Shown here piece after piece: positions 19,401 to 46,400 of a stretch of 64,000 nt of DNA (positions are counted from its first letter, which is position 1; every line of letters begins with the position of its first letter). Under the pieces are notes generated by a model. That model saw nothing but the letters and a program-made list of their open reading frames with translations, ran no database searches and was not told where the DNA came from. Source of the DNA: Henricia sp. BOLD:AAB3569 (lineage: Eukaryota > Echinodermata > Asteroidea > Spinulosida > Echinasteridae); contig JBBELK010000068.1 of assembly GCA_037783545.1 (NCBI GenBank), forward strand, positions 62,001 to 126,000, written 5' to 3'. The position numbers were made by a program, and so were the translations under genes.

Positions 19401-22400
19401 ATCGTTGTTTTTTGGTGTTTTTCATTCTGACCCCACACTCCTTTGTTGCATTCCTGTTCCGTGAAGCTTGCCATCATGGACTCCGTTGAGCTCTATTCCT
19501 TTGAGTGATATGTTCAGCTAAAATCTTATATATTATTTTCCTACATTAAATCCAATTTCATAATAAATATCTACAAATGTCTGACTGGTGACAGAACTTT
19601 TTTGGTCGAGTGTACAGATTCGCAACCATATTCGAACGTGTGCAAAACCTCTCTATTGACCTATACAATGTACTTACCAAAACCGACTTCTGAGGGAGCC
19701 ATTCAGGATCATATTTGACCAGAATGCTGCAGATTAAGATGCTCTGGTACTGCAGCTCCAGCTTAGCTTGGCTGTTGGGACTGCTAGGTCTTGCAACGGG
19801 CTGTTGATAGCAATTAATCAGGTATTGATTAAACTATTGAACAATTAACTGAACAGCCATGTTTAGTCTATGATACACAAAATTAAAGCCTAATACAACA
19901 TTTGAAGTTACCCAAAATTTTACTTCACGAGTTGACCAAAAAAAACCGACTAAAAGTGTTGATAGGAATGGTAACATTATTTTTTTCTCGTGTAAAATGG
20001 TACCTTTGTGGGAGAAATTGATAACTAAATGTGCTTTAAAAAAAAAAAATATTATGCAGACAATTTTGTTACTATTCATTAAACACAAAAAACGTGCATA
20101 GATTTTTAAGGTTTTCAGAAGTAATACTGCATCCGTGTTGCTGAAATTTCTACAAGGCAGTTTATCAACATTATTCTTTAGTTATGTAATGCTGTTGTTC
20201 CTGCTTTTAAATGTTTTCCAATCATGTAATATGTCTTTAAACACAAGGTAGTACTTTAAAGACTAACTGTAGGAGGGTAATTCCTAACTATTGATTGCTT
20301 TCCGGTGACGTCACGCCTTCCATCCACCATTTTGGTGGGCATTTTTCATGACCCACGTGGCTCGAGAAATAACCGGCAAGAAGAGCAAGAAAAGCGCATT
20401 GGTTGCACTTACCCCCATGCTCGAACTTGCTTTATGTTGTTGCGCCGTGGCTGTTGTATCGAGAAAGATAAAAACGCATTTCTTCAGGCTAAAAATCGCG
20501 ATCAAGTAAAAGCACCTTCGTTTTTACAAGCCGAGTGCATGCTCAATAATTTGAACGTATCACAACGCCCGCGTGCGGCATCTTCGAATGAAAATACGCT
20601 GGTGAGTATTTTTTACGCGTGTTCATGTGCGTCTATTGGCGCGCGCGTGCACGCGCGTGACTGTTGACCACCACACATTCCCGGATGTTCTACGTCATCG
20701 AAAGCAATCAATAGGGGTCCAAAAGTATGACATGCTTTTAAAGATTTTCAAGTGTGTTTAGTGATTGAAAGTGGTTTTCCAGTAGAAAATATTTATTTTT
20801 ATTTCCATAAATGCCACTTAAATTTAACGTTTGTGTGTGGATATAAGGCTAATGCAAACTCATTATACAGCTAATTTTCATTGGCGTAGGTAACCCAAGA
20901 CACCAAATTCCTATTCAATATAATGGAACAAATTATGTGGTTTTCCAGTAGAAAATATTTATTTTTATTTCCATAAATGCCACTCAAATTTAACGTTTGT
21001 GTGTGGATAAAGCACCAAGGTTAATGCAAACTCATTATACAGCTAATTTTCATTGGCGTAGGTAACACGGGACACCAAATTCCTATTCAATATAATGGAA
21101 CAAATTATGAGCCCTTATGGTCTTTTGTTTCGAATATTTGTCAGTAATCACAGAACAAAATATTCAAGAAATTGGTGCTGTCCCCTGTAATCACAGGCCA
21201 CAGTCTATTACTGAGAATCTGTGATCATGAGTGGTGATTTTTGATGCACAGGGTGTCGTACATAACTGGGACACCAAACGTTTTGGACCCCTAATTTTGG
21301 GAATTACCCAGGAACAAATTATGCATGAGCTTTCTGATGAAGTAGTTGTTGCTTTGAGAGTATCTTTATATTGATTGCTTTCCGGTGACGTCACGCCTTC
21401 CATCCACCATTTTGGTTGTCATTTTTCATGACCCACGTGGCCCGAGCACTTACCTCCGTTGCTTAACCTTGCTGTATGTTGTTGCGCCATGGCTGTTGTA
21501 TCGATAAAGATAAAAATGTATTTCTTCCAGCTAAAAATCGCGATCAAGTAGAAGCACTTACGTTTTTACAAGCCGAGTGCATGCTCAATAATTTGAACGT
21601 ATCGCAGCGCGCGCATGCGGCATCTTCGAATGAAAATACGCTGGTGAGTATTTTTTGCGCGTGTTCATGTGCGTCTATTGGCGCGCGCGTGTACGCGCGT
21701 GATCGTTGACCACCAAACATTCCCGGATGTTCTACGTAACGGAAAGCAATCAATATTGGTTGGTAACTGGAATAACAGGGTATGCCTGCCTGTGTACCTG
21801 TAGCAGGGTTGTAGTCAAGTCTATCACAAGTCTATCACAAGTCCAGAGCCGATAAAATCACAAGTCCAGAGCCGATAAAATCACAAGTCCAGAGCCGATA
21901 AAATCACAAGTCCAGTAACAAGAAGCAAAGGATGAACACGCACAAAAGAATGCCTTTGTTGGAGTTCATCTGAATAGCTTGCGACTTGAATTAATGCCCA
22001 GGGACTTGTGGTGGACTTGTGAAGGCTTGTGAGGACTTGTGATGGACTCAACTACAACCCTGTATACCTGTGGCTTGTTGAAAGCCAGGTTGATGAGCTT
22101 GATCGTGTTTGCCTGAAGGACGTCTCTTAACGGTTTGGCGTCATCTTGCTTCAAGAGATACTGCAAACAAATAAAGAATAATCAAACAGTTTTACAGACA
22201 TTTACACGCTTAAAGCAGAATCATTTTGAAATGTCCAAATGGTCTTATTCATGTGTGCACGCTAACATGGTCGTACTTGTTTGCATACATAGGTTATGAA
22301 GAAAAAAAATGATGATATAAACTGACTCCTGCATTAAAAATTGAAAAATGTAACAATATTGAAAATGTTTACAATATACAAATAGCTAAAATCAATTATG

Positions 22401-25400: not shown

Positions 25401-28400
25401 GGTGCATGTCTTTCACATAGGAAATCGCGACTTGGGCTATTATCAGCGTCCAAGTCACTAGTACGTTTAAGACCAGCAAAACACACTTTTATTACCTAAT
25501 TCATAAATACCTTAGACAGTTTACGCATCCCTATTGGCAGAAAGCACATCACGTGGGTAGTTTTAAATAAGCGACAAAGGCACAGTCAGTCTTAAACATT
25601 TTTGAGCCTGGCTAGCGGCCGCGCCTGCGCTCTGGTCGGCGCGTATGGAACAAGCACACAGAAACTGCACGCTCCCGAAAGCAAATTGTACACTGTGACA
25701 AGTATCCAGTCGTGTGCTTGCGCGTACAACACGCTTGCATTACGCGTAACGCGCGCGATCGAACAAAAACATATCGACGCACAGCTAGCAGTTGTACGAA
25801 CGCGGTGTTGACACTGTGGGTGTAGAAAGTGAATGCAAAACATGGCAAAACGACGAGCTAATTTTGGTGAGTTTTACCAAATTACGCAAAAAGGTATTTA
25901 TGAATATTCTAAACAATCGGTTTAAAACTGGCTAGGGTCCTGGGCACTGATAATGCAACATGTTACATTTTGGCTAAACTGTCAGCAATGAGACCCAACA
26001 CTTCTTGTACTGGGCATTCGTAAAACACACATAAGCTGCTAAAAACATCTCAATCAAACTAATTCAAATCTTGTTTACATAATGCTGATGTACATGAGAT
26101 GTGCATGTATGTACTGTCTCACATCCGTCTTAAATCTAAAACACATTGTATGTCATGCAGTCCACCACAAGTCCCTGGGTCTTATTTCGACTCACGAGCT
26201 ATTCAAATGAACTCCAACAAAGGCATTCTTTTGTGAGTGTTCATCCTTTGTTTCTTGTTACTGGACTTGTGATAGACGTGTGCGGGACTTGTCATTTTAT
26301 CTGCTCTGGACTTGTGACAGACTTGTGATGGACTCGACTCCGACCCTGCTGTCATGACCGAATATAGCTTTCTTAAATTTCATGTGTCCCAAGATACAAG
26401 TTGTGCCTACACAATTCTGTACAGGAGAAAACCAACAGAATCAAGCAGGAACCGAGAACCCAATCCACGTTCTGACCTTGATGGGATTCGAACCAGGGCC
26501 ACAGAGGTGGAAGGCGGGGAAATTACCATGTTCACCCTCTAGTAACCAGGCTCCTGACAGACTCGTAACAGAATCAAATGTTTCCCGAGGAACATAAAAA
26601 CGCAAATTTTAAGTTTAATCAAAATTTGAAAATCTCTTTTGTAATTGAGTTGATATCGAAATGTTCAAATATCAGCTTCATTATAACGCTTGTGTGCTTT
26701 AACTTCCCACGGTCAGACTGATTAATTATTTTTCAATTAACAAATGGACAATCTGTTTGCGTGTCTTTCGTCGCTCGGTATATAACGCAATGACTTTGAT
26801 GTGGTGTAGTTTTAAAGGCCCTGTAGATGATCTGTTTTTAAGCGATTCTGTGAATAAAACCATTATAATTCAAACGAAAGACATCAACAAACTCATCCGA
26901 AGAAATTTCAGCTTTGTCAATTATTTTTCAATTAACAAATGGACAATCTGTTTGCGTGTCTTTCGTCGCTCGGTATATAACGCAATGACTTTGATGTGGT
27001 GTAGTTTTAAAGGCCCTGTAGATGATCTGTTTTTAAGCGATTCTGTGAATAAAACCATTATAATTCAAACGAAAGACATCAACAAACTCATCCGAAGAAA
27101 TTTCAGCTTTGTCAAATGTACCACGTTTAAAAAAAACATGAAAATCCATATGCGTTTTCCTGGTCTTGGCGGGGTGTTTCAAATATTTGTTCTCAGTTGA
27201 TCGGGTACTATGTGGCTTGCGTCATGCACTCTGTGGCGCACATCATATACTGCTGTGCGCGCGATCCATAAAAATGCATCGCGTTGGAACACGCACACGG
27301 AGTACACAGCGCCCATGCATTTTGGACCGCGTAGATGCGAACCAAAAATAAGTAATCTAAATAATTTCATCTTTACGGATTATTTTCTGCTAGAATTATA
27401 TCATTTTGAGCAGAAACCTTTCATTGAGTAGTTGCTATTAATTCAATCTTTACTTTCAGAACTTTTCCCCTGTAAACTCGTTGATTACTTTTTGGGGTCA
27501 TTGCAAATGATACACTGGGCCTCTAACTTACAAGCATTTGTTCGCAGAGTTTCTCGTTATATGCATTTGGGAAGAGTTGCGTCAGCTTGTGAAGTCTCTG
27601 TATGACGTTGAGGTTTAGTGATCGATGGTCACCCAGCTTGAGTAGTAATGGCCGTATGGTGGTGTGCACAAGCTCCATATCCACGGGGTGACCGGCGATG
27701 AACTTCTTCATGGACTCGGCGCCCGCTTCTAAAAGCTCGGGGACTTTAGACGTCAGGAAGATGTAGAGCAATCTGAAGACCTTTTCTCGAACCTGAGGGA
27801 TGTAGTGACACGCGGCAAGGGCATCTGCGCAGAAAACCATCGGTACAACAAATAATTTACACTATATAGCGCGAGTCAGAAGAAAGAAAAATATGCTCTT
27901 TTTGATTCGCAAATTTATATCTCCAAAACTTGGCACAGGCTCGTCAGCAATGCGCGCGTGCCAAATCCGTGTCGCAAAATACGCAGCTCCATGCCTTTGG
28001 AGCTGCTATGGTATGGAGCTGCGTATTTCGTGGCATGAATTTGGCGCGCGCGCATTGCTGACGAGCCTGTGCCTTTAATATGTTTTCTCTGACAATGCAG
28101 TCAAGAGCAAGTTCGGGCGGGCGACTATAGTTAACTAGACTAACCATAGTCGGTCTAGACGTCACCCGAACGCTGCGTGGCTTGACTAGCTAGTCTGACT
28201 AGAGGAACCATACCCCTGGGGTAGGTTTAGTCAGTTGTAATCACGTCACTTTTTCGCTAAAAAAGTGTTAATTTATATCGGAATTAAAGATGAATTAATA
28301 ACCAATTCTATGGTAGCTTTTGGTGAACGAGTTGAAATGTCTTAAGTAGAACATACGAGGGCAAACATGGGGGAAAAGGTTGCCAACAATTGCTTGTATT

Positions 28401-37400: not shown

Positions 37401-40400
37401 TCAATATCATCAATATCATCAATATCATCAATAGCATCAATAGCATCAATAGCATCAATATCATCAATTTCATCAATATCATCAATTTCATCAACTGCAT
37501 CAATTACCCACTCCCCCCCCCCCCCCCCCCCCCATGCCAAGGCCGTTCATGCACAATCAATGGGGAATTCCCATGTGGGACTGCTGGCCTGGTAGCTTGT
37601 AACTGATACAGCGGGTGAATGAACTTACCCAGGCCACACAAATTCTACAATATGTTTCTCAAGCATATAATGTATAAAGTCATGGAAAATGAGATTTTAA
37701 CTAAATTCATACGCAGAGTAATTAACAAAAATGCATAATTAGCCAGTCGGATAGCAACCGGTTGTCAAGAAAGTGAACCCCAAGAATACTTACTCTATAC
37801 TTTGAGCCCATGATGGTAGTGGCTGTATCTAACACAACCGTCATCGCTAGGTGTCCCGTCTTGGATAATTCCTTCTCCTCGTAGGCCATGCAAGCTGCAA
37901 TGGCATCCAGTAGGACCAAGGGATCCATCGTGGTCTGGTTCTTGAGGTGGGAAATAGGCAGGGGACCTGAAGGCATGGACATGAAATGCGTAAAGGAACA
38001 CTCCGAAGTGCTAAAACAATTATTAAAGGGAAAGTATACCTAGGAAACAAAAGACATCGTGTAATTGAATATGTATTCAAGTAAAGCAAATTGAAATCCT
38101 ACCTGCTTGTTGGACCACAGTTACCAGAGTGAAGTGTCTGACAATGTTCAACATGAAGGGTACAGAGCTGCCACGCAGATCTTTGATTGCAACTGAAACT
38201 GAATATATTCCAAAACAAAAACTAGATTACATTGGGTTTTTCTGTGGTGATAACCCTCTTGAAGTCGGAGACTTGATATTAAGCCTGTCTATGCCTTTGG
38301 ATGGTTACGGAGAATTAGCTGGGTCAGTACTACCAGGGCAGAGCTGGTAGGGCCAATGATTTTCCGCGATCGCGGAAAACGGACGGAATTCGCGGAATCT
38401 GCCCTTTGAAACGGAAAACGGGATTTGAGTTTGAAGTAAAAAAAATTTTAAATATAGTGACAAAAACCAAACCTATTGAAATTTATCAAGCTAACTTAAC
38501 ACTGCATTCTTTATTAAGCTTCTTTTTGTTAAACTAAAAAAGCATCAGAAATCAGACCGTAAAAAGTTACGAGATTCACCGTTGACTCGACCAGATGTAC
38601 ATGTACGTCATGTACATTGCAAATGAATACACGTTAGACGCGAGGGCAAAATCATCACATTCACGGCACGATCTTTACATTTTTTTTCACCCAAATTGCA
38701 TTTTCTCCCTCACTGTTATCAACAATTATACTCAAACTAGCTTTTGTACGCTCTATATGAACACACACATTGATTTTTCATCTCGGAAAGGTCTAAAATC
38801 AACCATAAACTTTCAACATTTTGTCGCCAAAGCGAAAACAAAATGGCTGACAATTCGTTTCTGTGTGGAGGAGAAGAACACGGTGACGTCATGCAATGAT
38901 ACTGCAGTGCAACGGCTGTTACATGTTTCTTGTTTTTGTTGCAGCGATCAGTCAGTGAGTCAGTGCATTACGTTTTAGAAATTGCCAACTCCGGAACTGA
39001 ATCGGCCGTTGATTTAAAAAAAATAATTTACGATCTCATCATCTGCATCTCAATTCAAATTAACATTTTAAGAAGTCAGCAGTGCATCGTATACAAAAGT
39101 TATGTTTATAATCGACTCCCTGGGCATTAACAACCTTTTATCTATTAAAGAACATGAAACGGAATTTATTTTGTCTGAAACGGAATTCATGTTTTTCAAA
39201 AACGGAATTTGCCCTTTTCTGAAACGGAAAATCATTGGCACTAAGCTGGTATCTTAACTTGCTGGCTTGGGCTCAAGTCGGTGTGTATGCCTTGGGGTGG
39301 TTATACAGAATTAGCTGGGTCAGTACTAACAGGGCAGAGCTGGTCTCTCAACTTGGTGGCTTGGGCTCAAGTCAGTGTGTATGCCTTGGGGTGGTTATAC
39401 AGAATTAGCTGGGTCAGTACTACCAGGGCAGAGCTGGTCTCTCAACTTGCTGGCTTGGGCTCAAGTCAGTGTGTATGCCTTGGGGGTGGTTATGCAGAAT
39501 TAGCTGGGTCAGTACTACCAGGGCAGAGCTGGTCACGCGACTTGCTGGCTTGAGCTCAAGTCAGTGTGTATGCCTTGGGGGTGGTTATACAGAATTAGCT
39601 GGGTCAGTACTACCAGGGCAGATCTGGTCTCTCAACTTGGTGGCTTGGGCTCAAGTCAGTGTGTATGCCTTGGGGTGGTTATACAGAATTAGCTGGGTCA
39701 GTACTACCAGGGCAGAGCTGGTCTCTCAACTTGCTGGCTTGGGCTCAAGTCAGTGTGTATGCCTTGTGGGTGGTTATACAGAATTAGCTGGGTCAGTACT
39801 ACCAGAGCAGAACTGGTCTCTCAACTTGGTGGCTTGGGCTCAAATCAGTGTGTATGCCTTGTGGGTGGTTATACAGAATTAGCTGGGTCAGTACTACCAG
39901 GGCAGAGCTGGTCTCTCAACTTGGTGGCTTGGGCTCAAGTCAGTGTGTATGCCTTGTGGGTGGTTATACAGAATTAGCTGGGTCAGTACTACCAGAGCAG
40001 AACTGGTCTCTCAACTTGCTGGCTTGGGCTCAAATCAGTGTGTATGCCTTGGGGGTGGTTATACAGAATTAGCTAGGTCAGTACTACCAGGGCAGAGCTG
40101 GTCTCTCGACATTGTGATGGCGACAGTGTCAACCGTCAAGCATGCGCTAACTAAAAATAATAATAGAAGCTGTGCATTTAAACGATGCATAGTATCTAAT
40201 ACGACTGTTAATAGGTGCCGTGGCCATTATTATTACCGCTGCAATCATAGAATCACCAGAACAATTTCGCTTCAACTAGATGGCTGCCTGGCCAAGGCGC
40301 ACAACCCTATCAGCAGTTAGATTGCGGCATTTTCCCCCAACAACTTCCCAAATATCGCTCGGGTTGACGAGGCAATTAAGATTATGAGGTCATGACATAA

Positions 40401-43400: not shown

Positions 43401-46400
43401 AAACCCTGTGTACAAATTTTCACAATACACTCGTAACCGGGACGGACACTTGTGTTACATTTTAGGCCGTTCCCGTTATATTGGAAATTTGTACACAGGG
43501 TTTTTAGAAAGGCATGTTGTCACACTATTTGTAACCCTTTTTGGGCCTAAGTTATCTCTTCAGAACGACTAAAACTGATTTATTTTATTTCAAGACCAGA
43601 CAAAGGTATTTTCTGGAAAATAGGGTCTGTATTGCCAAAATGCTCCCTTTACCGTGGAAGAACTCTATTTTCCCACCTTACTGACTGGAAGCTGAACCTG
43701 GCTCTTATGATCAGGGAAGTGAATGGTAACACACGGTCCTTCCGAATCTTCATCTTTGTACGTCAGCTGTGCAAGAAAAGTCAAGTTTTCAAAATAAACT
43801 TTCAATTTCCGTGCAACTCGAACATACGTAGCACCACCATGTGTTTCTGTTAAAGAGGGATTTTCTAACAAAGCGGTCGACATCGGTGTATTCGTCTATT
43901 GCACAAACAATTCAGATTTGATTTGATAACGAATACCTAATTTAGATGTTGAAGTTTAGTTAGGAAGAACTAAACTTCAAATTTTTTCAAATCTTAAAAG
44001 AAATTCTAAATGGGTAATTTCCAAAATTAGGGGTCCCAGTTACGTACGACACCGTCTGCTTCAAAAATCACCACTCATGATCACAAATTCTCAGTAATTG
44101 ACTGTGGCCTGTGATTATAGGGGGCAGCATCATTTTTTTCAATATTTTGTTTTCTGATTCCTGAAAAATATTCAAAACAAAAGACCATAAAGGCTTATAA
44201 TTTGTTTGGTGTCCCGGGTTACCTACGCCAATGAAATTTGGCTGTAGAATGAGTTTGCATTAACCTTGGTGCCATATCTACACACAAACATTAAATTTGA
44301 GTGGCATTTGTTCAAATAAAAATAATTATTTTCTACTGGGAAACCACTTTCAATCATTAAAAACACTTGGAAATCTTAAAAAGCATGTCACACTTTTGGA
44401 CCCCTAATTTTGGGAATTACCCAAATACTGGTCTTACCCGCTGTGGTTCCTTTAACATTTTACGATTTCCACCGCCAAATTTCCCCAGGACACGGAAGGC
44501 AACATGGGCAATGTTATCGTTCCGATTTCGGAGAGTCCGCCACAGAGCCTAGAGATTAACAATCAGTTCATATTAGAAACAAGTGTACACATTACAAACT
44601 ATTCATTTAATGATTAAAGCCCCATTACACCATTTGCAATGATCCAAAATTTTACTTCTCAGGTTGACACAAAAAACTCAACTAAAAGTGTTGATAGCAA
44701 TGGTAACAAACACCACATTATATTTTCCTGTGTAAAATGGTACCTTTGTGCAAAATAGTACCCTTTTTAAAAATAATTTGCAAATTATTTTGTTAACCAT
44801 CCATTCTACATAAAAACCATACATGATCTTTAAAGGTTTAGTGAAGTGAAAATTATTATTTGTTTTTATACACGAATCAGAAGATCAGAGTGTTGCAGAC
44901 AAAGGGGCAAACTGAAATTTGTTTTCATTTCAGAAAAAAGTAAACTTTTCTCTACTTAAAAATTTTCTTGACAGACGAGGGCACTGTTTATTGCTAGTCA
45001 TGAAGGGAACCCACAGTTGAAAAACAAAGAAAGAACATTACATTTCAAACAGTAACAGTAGCCCACTGATCTGTTTCTGACCCAAACAAACTTGTTGGGA
45101 TTGTTGCAAATGACATACTAAATCAACAAACTCAGTAAACTGTTACAGATCATAACACCAAAAAGTCACTGAAAATGACAAAAACTTTTGTACACAAGTC
45201 AATGGAGATTTCCTCTGTTGTCACGTCCTGAGATGACATCATGGATTTGCTCATGAATATGGACATTCATTAGCATAAAAATAGAAAACTTGCAATTACA
45301 CCAAACCGGAACAATCAAATTTTCTGAATTTGACGGAAATCTACTATTATTATATTTAATAAAAACCCTATATCACACGTCCTTTATAGTTTTCTGAAGT
45401 ATTACTGCATCTATGTGGCTGAAATTTCTACAAGGCAGTTTATCAACATTATTCGTTAGTTATGTAATGCTGTTGTTTCTCTTTTTAAAAGTTTTCCAAT
45501 CATGTAATCCGTCTGTAAAAGTCTATTTTTATGGACTGAATTCAAACAGGGGGTGTTGGCACATCATGAAAATACCCGCTGTCACACTGTTTGGTGGAAT
45601 GACATTTTGTCGGCTCTGGACTTGTGAAAGACTTGTGATGACTCGACTACAACTCTGGCAGGGACTGAAAACCCAATACACATACTGACCCAGACAGGAT
45701 TCGAACCAGGGCCACAGAGGTGGAAGGCGAGGAACGTTCTGCAATATTAACCCGATTGTCTCATAATCTAAAGGTACACACCGGCCTACTGTTTACATGA
45801 TTTAGTGATGTAGCAGCATTGACAATACTTTTTTGATGGTCGTTGTGAAAAAAAATCATCAAAATATCCTGTAATTTACTAAAGAAGTGCAAAATTAACA
45901 AAAACGGTCAAAATACGGGTTATACGCTTTACCAGCCATTGCAACTACGCGCGAGCTTCACGACTTTGTCACAAACGATTCGCTTTTTTCCTACCCGGGA
46001 AATCTCCAATTAGCCCAACGAAGCCGGTGTGTACCTTTAAATTAAAAAAAAAACGAAAATGTTTGAAATGCATGGCATAGCCCCGTTACCTGCATGAGTT
46101 CTGCTCGGACTGGCTGGATGTGCTCATATAGGAAATCTGGCTGCAGGTTATCCACACAGAGCTCCAGAGTCCGTAAGCCCTGTCGTTTAAAAGAAAATAA
46201 AATAAACAAGATTGACAGTGTTTCTCTATGGTCTTACAGAGTGAATTATAGGCATCAATATGGACACAAGCTTTTCTGTGCAGTTAGTCACTAAAGGTTT
46301 CACATTTAACCCTCGGAGAGGCACTGCCTAAAAAAATTGCACGGAGGCTCCAAGGGGGAGATTCCGGAAGGCACTTTGTATAATGCGTAAATAACACTGC

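Follow-up and report, generated by a model that had tools for sequence, protein, structure and literature searches.

In a window of 64,000 nucleotides from the genome of Henricia sp. BOLD:AAB3569 (contig JBBELK010000068.1, positions 62,001 to 126,000), a non-autonomous hAT-type MITE lies at the very start of an intron of the TRRAP gene. The sequences on its two sides make it quite probable that the element inserted into the splice donor itself, that the eight bases CCACAG|GT were duplicated there, and that the donor on the exon side still works. Read in this way, it would be a clear natural case of how a target duplication can protect a splice junction from an insertion; the gene concerned is conserved, and two apparently diverged haplotypes carry the insertion. 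The example is neat but mostly an ordinary transposition accident: by our own estimate, a family with thousands of copies should hit such sites a few times by chance alone, and the case implies no new mechanism by itself. It could be useful as a control wherever introners are claimed to require splice-site targeting.

The element and its family

The MITE spans positions 21804-22062 (259 bp) and is bounded by inverted ends, CAGGGTTGTAG...CTACAACCCTG, that are 29 nt long and 90% complementary. The coordinates given to the element and its flanking repeats in the initial annotation all proved right on direct reading, and the same terminal bases recur in other copies of the family. The terminal inverted repeats start with CAGGG; ends of the form CAGGG...CCCTG and an 8-bp target duplication are the signature of the hAT superfamily, of which Ac/Ds, Tol2 and hobo are representatives. 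The element is short and its family is present in high copy: the end sequence GACTCGACTACAACCCTG has 4,901 matches in the genome at no more than one mismatch and none in a reversed control, and the exact 12-mer CAGGGTTGTAGT, from the family end, occurs 3,121 times as against 46 in the reversed control. A search of the same genome with the whole element returned 85 match pieces (from the best 40 of 2,560 candidates scored). With identities of only 80-89% between the window copy and the full-length matches listed, the family appears not to be young. Within the element, positions 21834-21915 comprise a tandem repeat with a 23-bp period.

The genome contains 37 matches to the hAT dimerisation domain. 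In six 1-kb stretches, each on one side of such a domain, no autonomous partner bearing the MITE ends was found, the best end match having at least 5 mismatches in 17 positions. Elsewhere in the window, ends resembling two more copies of the family are seen at 26329-26348 and 45637-45657, with similar ends at roughly corresponding places in the apparent second haplotype described below. About 45 bp from the MITE, at 21369-21760, there is another inverted-repeat element (ends ATATTGATTGCTTTCCG). A stretch similar to it occurs at 20288-20714, and the two match one and the same place in the other haplotype.

The TRRAP exon and its two donor-like sites

On the minus strand, a TRRAP coding exon of 93 nt (22068-22160; 31 residues, phase 0 at both ends), reading TATCTCTTGAAG...AACAAGCCACAG, ends at 22068 with CCACAG, and GTATACAGGG follows from 22067. 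The intron that begins there, as placed by coding continuity, covers 19801-22067 (2,267 nt, minus strand), with donor CAG|GTATAC and acceptor CAACAG, and the MITE sits 5 bp inside it. Together with its upstream neighbour, the exon matches PDB chains named transformation/transcription domain-associated protein (TRRAP) at an E-value of 8e-14; the matched chain is presumably the human one. Joining the next exon, which starts at 19800, improved the match to 3.1e-23. Because the alignment of this joined protein with TRRAP passes through the exon junction, with two one-residue gaps, the exon-side donor is predicted to preserve the TRRAP protein.

Direct reading of the minus strand bore out the earlier description of the exon-side repeat as the exon end CCACAG followed by the donor GTA at 22067-22065, and likewise that of a donor-like copy beyond the element. 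This second site (21792-21803, minus strand, with GT at 21797-21796) reads CTACAG|GTACAC in the window and CCACAG|GTACAC in contig C19, which carries a MITE insertion at the corresponding TRRAP site. In both haplotypes, a reading frame extended through the exon-side donor runs into a stop after 33 codons, so transcripts using the far donor should be cut short. The two near-identical donors are 270 nt apart here and 223 nt apart in the other haplotype. If they competed, a share of TRRAP transcripts would keep the element, gain the stop and be degraded, and the MITE would act as an allele-length-dependent dimmer of an essential gene; we regard a functional far donor of this kind as most improbable.

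Target duplication in the family and at TRRAP

To define the target duplication of the family we took 100 stretches, comprising the 40 best places in the same genome (the window copy and its C19 counterpart among them) and 60 from the head of the list of end matches; both ends were recognisable with enough flank in 72, and the other 28 were excluded. Across these 72 copies, flank identity for an abutting duplication was 0.69 at 8 bp, as against 0.24-0.29 at 5-7 and 9-13 bp. The target duplication of this MITE family is 8 bp and adjoins both ends. After removal of redundant copies (L034, L046, L048, L075, L107 and L108), 41 of 66 showed an abutting 8-bp duplication with at least 6/8 positions identical, a number that rises to 44 when the ends may slip by 1 bp. 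A target profile was compiled from the 38 duplications of at least 7/8 identity, each entered in both orientations, so that the symmetry of the profile is built in. The frequencies are 0.68 T and 0.22 C at position 2, and 0.68 A and 0.22 G at position 7; the preference for T and A at these two positions is the hAT target pattern. In one further copy (L039; C151:1579400-1580250) a perfect 8-bp duplication stands seven bases out of register, the added bases being palindromic with the duplication (TCAAG/CTTGA) and resembling the hairpin-opening additions that occur in hAT excision.

At the TRRAP insertion, the left flank carries TACCTGTAG at 21795-21803, and the right flank reads TA (22063-22064) and then TACCTGTGG at 22065-22073, a 9-bp repeat with 8/9 positions identical. 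In C19 the two sides agree in full, each carrying the 9-mer TACCTGTGG; most simply, then, the far-side TACCTGTAG in the window would have arisen by one later substitution. That this repeat is accidental is unlikely, since a control in which the left flank of one family copy was paired with the right flank of another yielded a perfect 9-mer lying no more than 3 bp from either end in only one of 4,290 mismatched pairings of non-redundant copies (about two of 5,112, a fraction of 0.00039, before redundant copies were removed).

The register of the repeat is irregular for the family. The octamers that strictly abut the element, ACCTGTGG in C19 (ACCTGTAG in the window) and TATACCTG, match at only one of eight positions, so that the TRRAP copy itself lacks an abutting 8-bp duplication; when three exon-side bases (TAT) are skipped, ACCTGTGG stands on both sides, 8/8 in C19. 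Scored against the family target preference, ACCTGTGG reaches 1.46, a moderate fit only, with 13 of 34 real duplications below it and 10% of random octamers scoring as well. The abutting TATACCTG (-5.93) and TACCTGTG (-6.14) do not fit the preference; ACCTGTAG scores 2.3, and GTACCTGT, which overlaps ACCTGTGG one step further out and adjoins neither end, scores 3.4. The duplication is probably the 8 bp CCACAG|GT (ACCTGTGG) with an irregular junction of 3 bp: a far copy at 21796-21803, adjoining the element and reading ACCTGTAG in the window and ACCTGTGG in C19; an exon-side copy at 22066-22073, ACCTGTGG, which on the minus strand is the exon end and donor CCACAG|GT; and, separating the exon-side copy from the element, TAT at 22063-22065, present in both haplotypes and unexpected for a regular insertion of this family. 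Two proposals of the initial annotation require amendment in this respect. The 9-bp repeat that it took for the target duplication is real, whereas its register is not that of the family, in which the duplication is 8 bp; here the exon-side copy lies 3 bp off. Its main proposal, that the element landed on the exon/intron junction and the duplication kept splicing intact, is probably right, again apart from the register; CCACAG|GTA stands on both sides (exact in C19), and the frame continues from the exon-side donor.

Proposed origin and alternative explanations

We propose that a non-autonomous hAT-type MITE, moved by a transposase supplied from elsewhere, entered the donor of a TRRAP intron that would already have been present. 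The site before insertion would have read GCCACAG|GTACACAGGCAGG, with a single CCACAGGTA. An 8-bp staggered cut on CCACAG|GT would, upon repair, have left the exon end and its GT on both sides of the element, and an irregular joining event would account for the three bases (ATA on the minus strand) between the exon-side copy and the element end. Exon-side CAG|GTATAC would then be the working donor, the element leaving with the intron, and the far copy CAG|GTACAC would persist as a redundant and probably silent donor.

The irregular junction invites other readings. Conceivably, repair was templated: the terminal CCTG of the element would have paired with a CCTG of the intron flank, and the copying of 11 bases (TGTACCTGTGG) would have produced a repeat of that length which adjoins both ends, with one later substitution and without need of a separate filler. 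In C19 the flanks CCTGTGTACCTGTGG and CCTGTATACCTGTGG are indeed identical at 14/15 positions, counting the element's own CCTG, but the element end itself accounts for four of the six extra matches, the flank is rich in CCTG, and the comparison is a post hoc one. Moreover, perfect abutting duplications of 9 to 13 bp are absent from all 72 family copies. We consider templated repair unlikely, and a primed copy of 11 bp less likely than an 8-bp duplication with an irregular junction. A further reading is that the element inserted a few bases into the intron without a preserved duplication, the far-side CCACAGGTA being a coincidental match to the donor. Imperfect flanks are not rare in the family, 22 of the 66 non-redundant copies showing no more than 5/8 identity even with 1 bp of slip, and the TRRAP repeat is out of register; against this stand the single perfect 9-mer among the control pairings and the perfect match in the second haplotype, and coincidence appears very unlikely.

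It could also be supposed that the family is introner-like, targeting or creating splice junctions, with the second donor in use; introner families that recruit splice sites from the target duplication are described (PMC9860276). Of the 3,121 exact ends, 13 do have the donor hexamer CAGGTR 0-6 bp before them, a slight excess over the roughly 7 expected, but 9 have its reverse complement YACCTG there, again with about 7 expected, the expectation for each orientation being our estimate from base frequencies in the flanks; once places with a shared flank are merged, the counts fall to 10 and 6. A hexamer is not equal to a splice junction, and coding support extends to the TRRAP pair only. In six short open stretches of 33-61 residues near other copies with donor hexamers, a weak test, no Pfam match was obtained at an E-value of 0.1. 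By this count of donor hexamers in both orientations, the family does not place many copies at splice junctions. In addition, splicing from the far donor would put a stop in frame, and the element makes up only 259 of the 2,267 nt of the intron, which argues against its having created it. We find this explanation scarcely credible, and the comparison with introners drawn in the initial annotation does not hold as family membership, donor-like hexamers showing no clear enrichment beside the 3,121 exact ends. Even without targeting, some 3,000 copies should include a few donor hits, given about 150,000 introns (an assumed number) with few permissive positions each in 740 Mb. A stwintron (PMC12403724) was also considered and dropped, an intron nested in a donor not being seen here.

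The proposed insertion into the donor with an 8-bp duplication places the TRRAP copy close to several known systems. With hAT MITEs it shares, as a family, the CAGGG...CCCTG ends, short length, high copy number and 8-bp duplication, and it differs in the three extra bases at the exon-side junction. Introners that take splice sites from the target duplication (PMC9860276) likewise involve a DNA transposon, but they make introns in many genes, whereas here one copy lies at the donor of a 2.3-kb intron and the family shows no clear donor enrichment. The exonization of maize Ds1 (PMC5432752) similarly involves a hAT element that lies in a gene and can touch splicing; there the element gives the splice sites, whereas here the host donor is duplicated. 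No published description of the TRRAP case was found in the portions of the introner and Ds literature surveyed, which is not proof of its absence.

An apparent second haplotype and the age of the insertion

Contig C19 was compared with the window over 60 kb (G000 C19:929500-989499; L057-L062) corresponding to window positions 1877-63393. The two are collinear from about 1.9 to 63.4 kb, the main pieces being about 86-99% identical, with many indels and some off-diagonal repeat matches. C19 appears to be the other haplotype, which the assembly would have kept as a sequence of its own; it may instead represent a large duplication. At the insertion, the two differ at 1/93 sites in the exon, 13/212 in the element, 18/489 in the exon-side flank and 70/493 in the far-side flank, the last figure possibly inflated by similar repeats nearby; a 47-bp gap in the C19 copy falls inside the 23-bp repeat of the MITE.

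An empty TRRAP site was found neither in collinear C19, where the element is present, nor elsewhere in the same genome, both long matches being filled (best 40 of 463 candidates). If these are indeed haplotypes, the insertion would therefore be older than their divergence, since both places are filled. The joined flanks of six other family copies were searched in the same manner (best 40 of 1,770 candidates); among the matches listed, a second place was present for three of the six, making four places in all, and none of the four was empty, the flanks lying 236 to 736 bp apart in every one. More generally, the assembly holds the two apparent haplotypes of this region separately, highly diverged and with many insertion differences, and a tandem array at window positions 39244-40110 (period about 95 bp) has roughly double the length in the second one.
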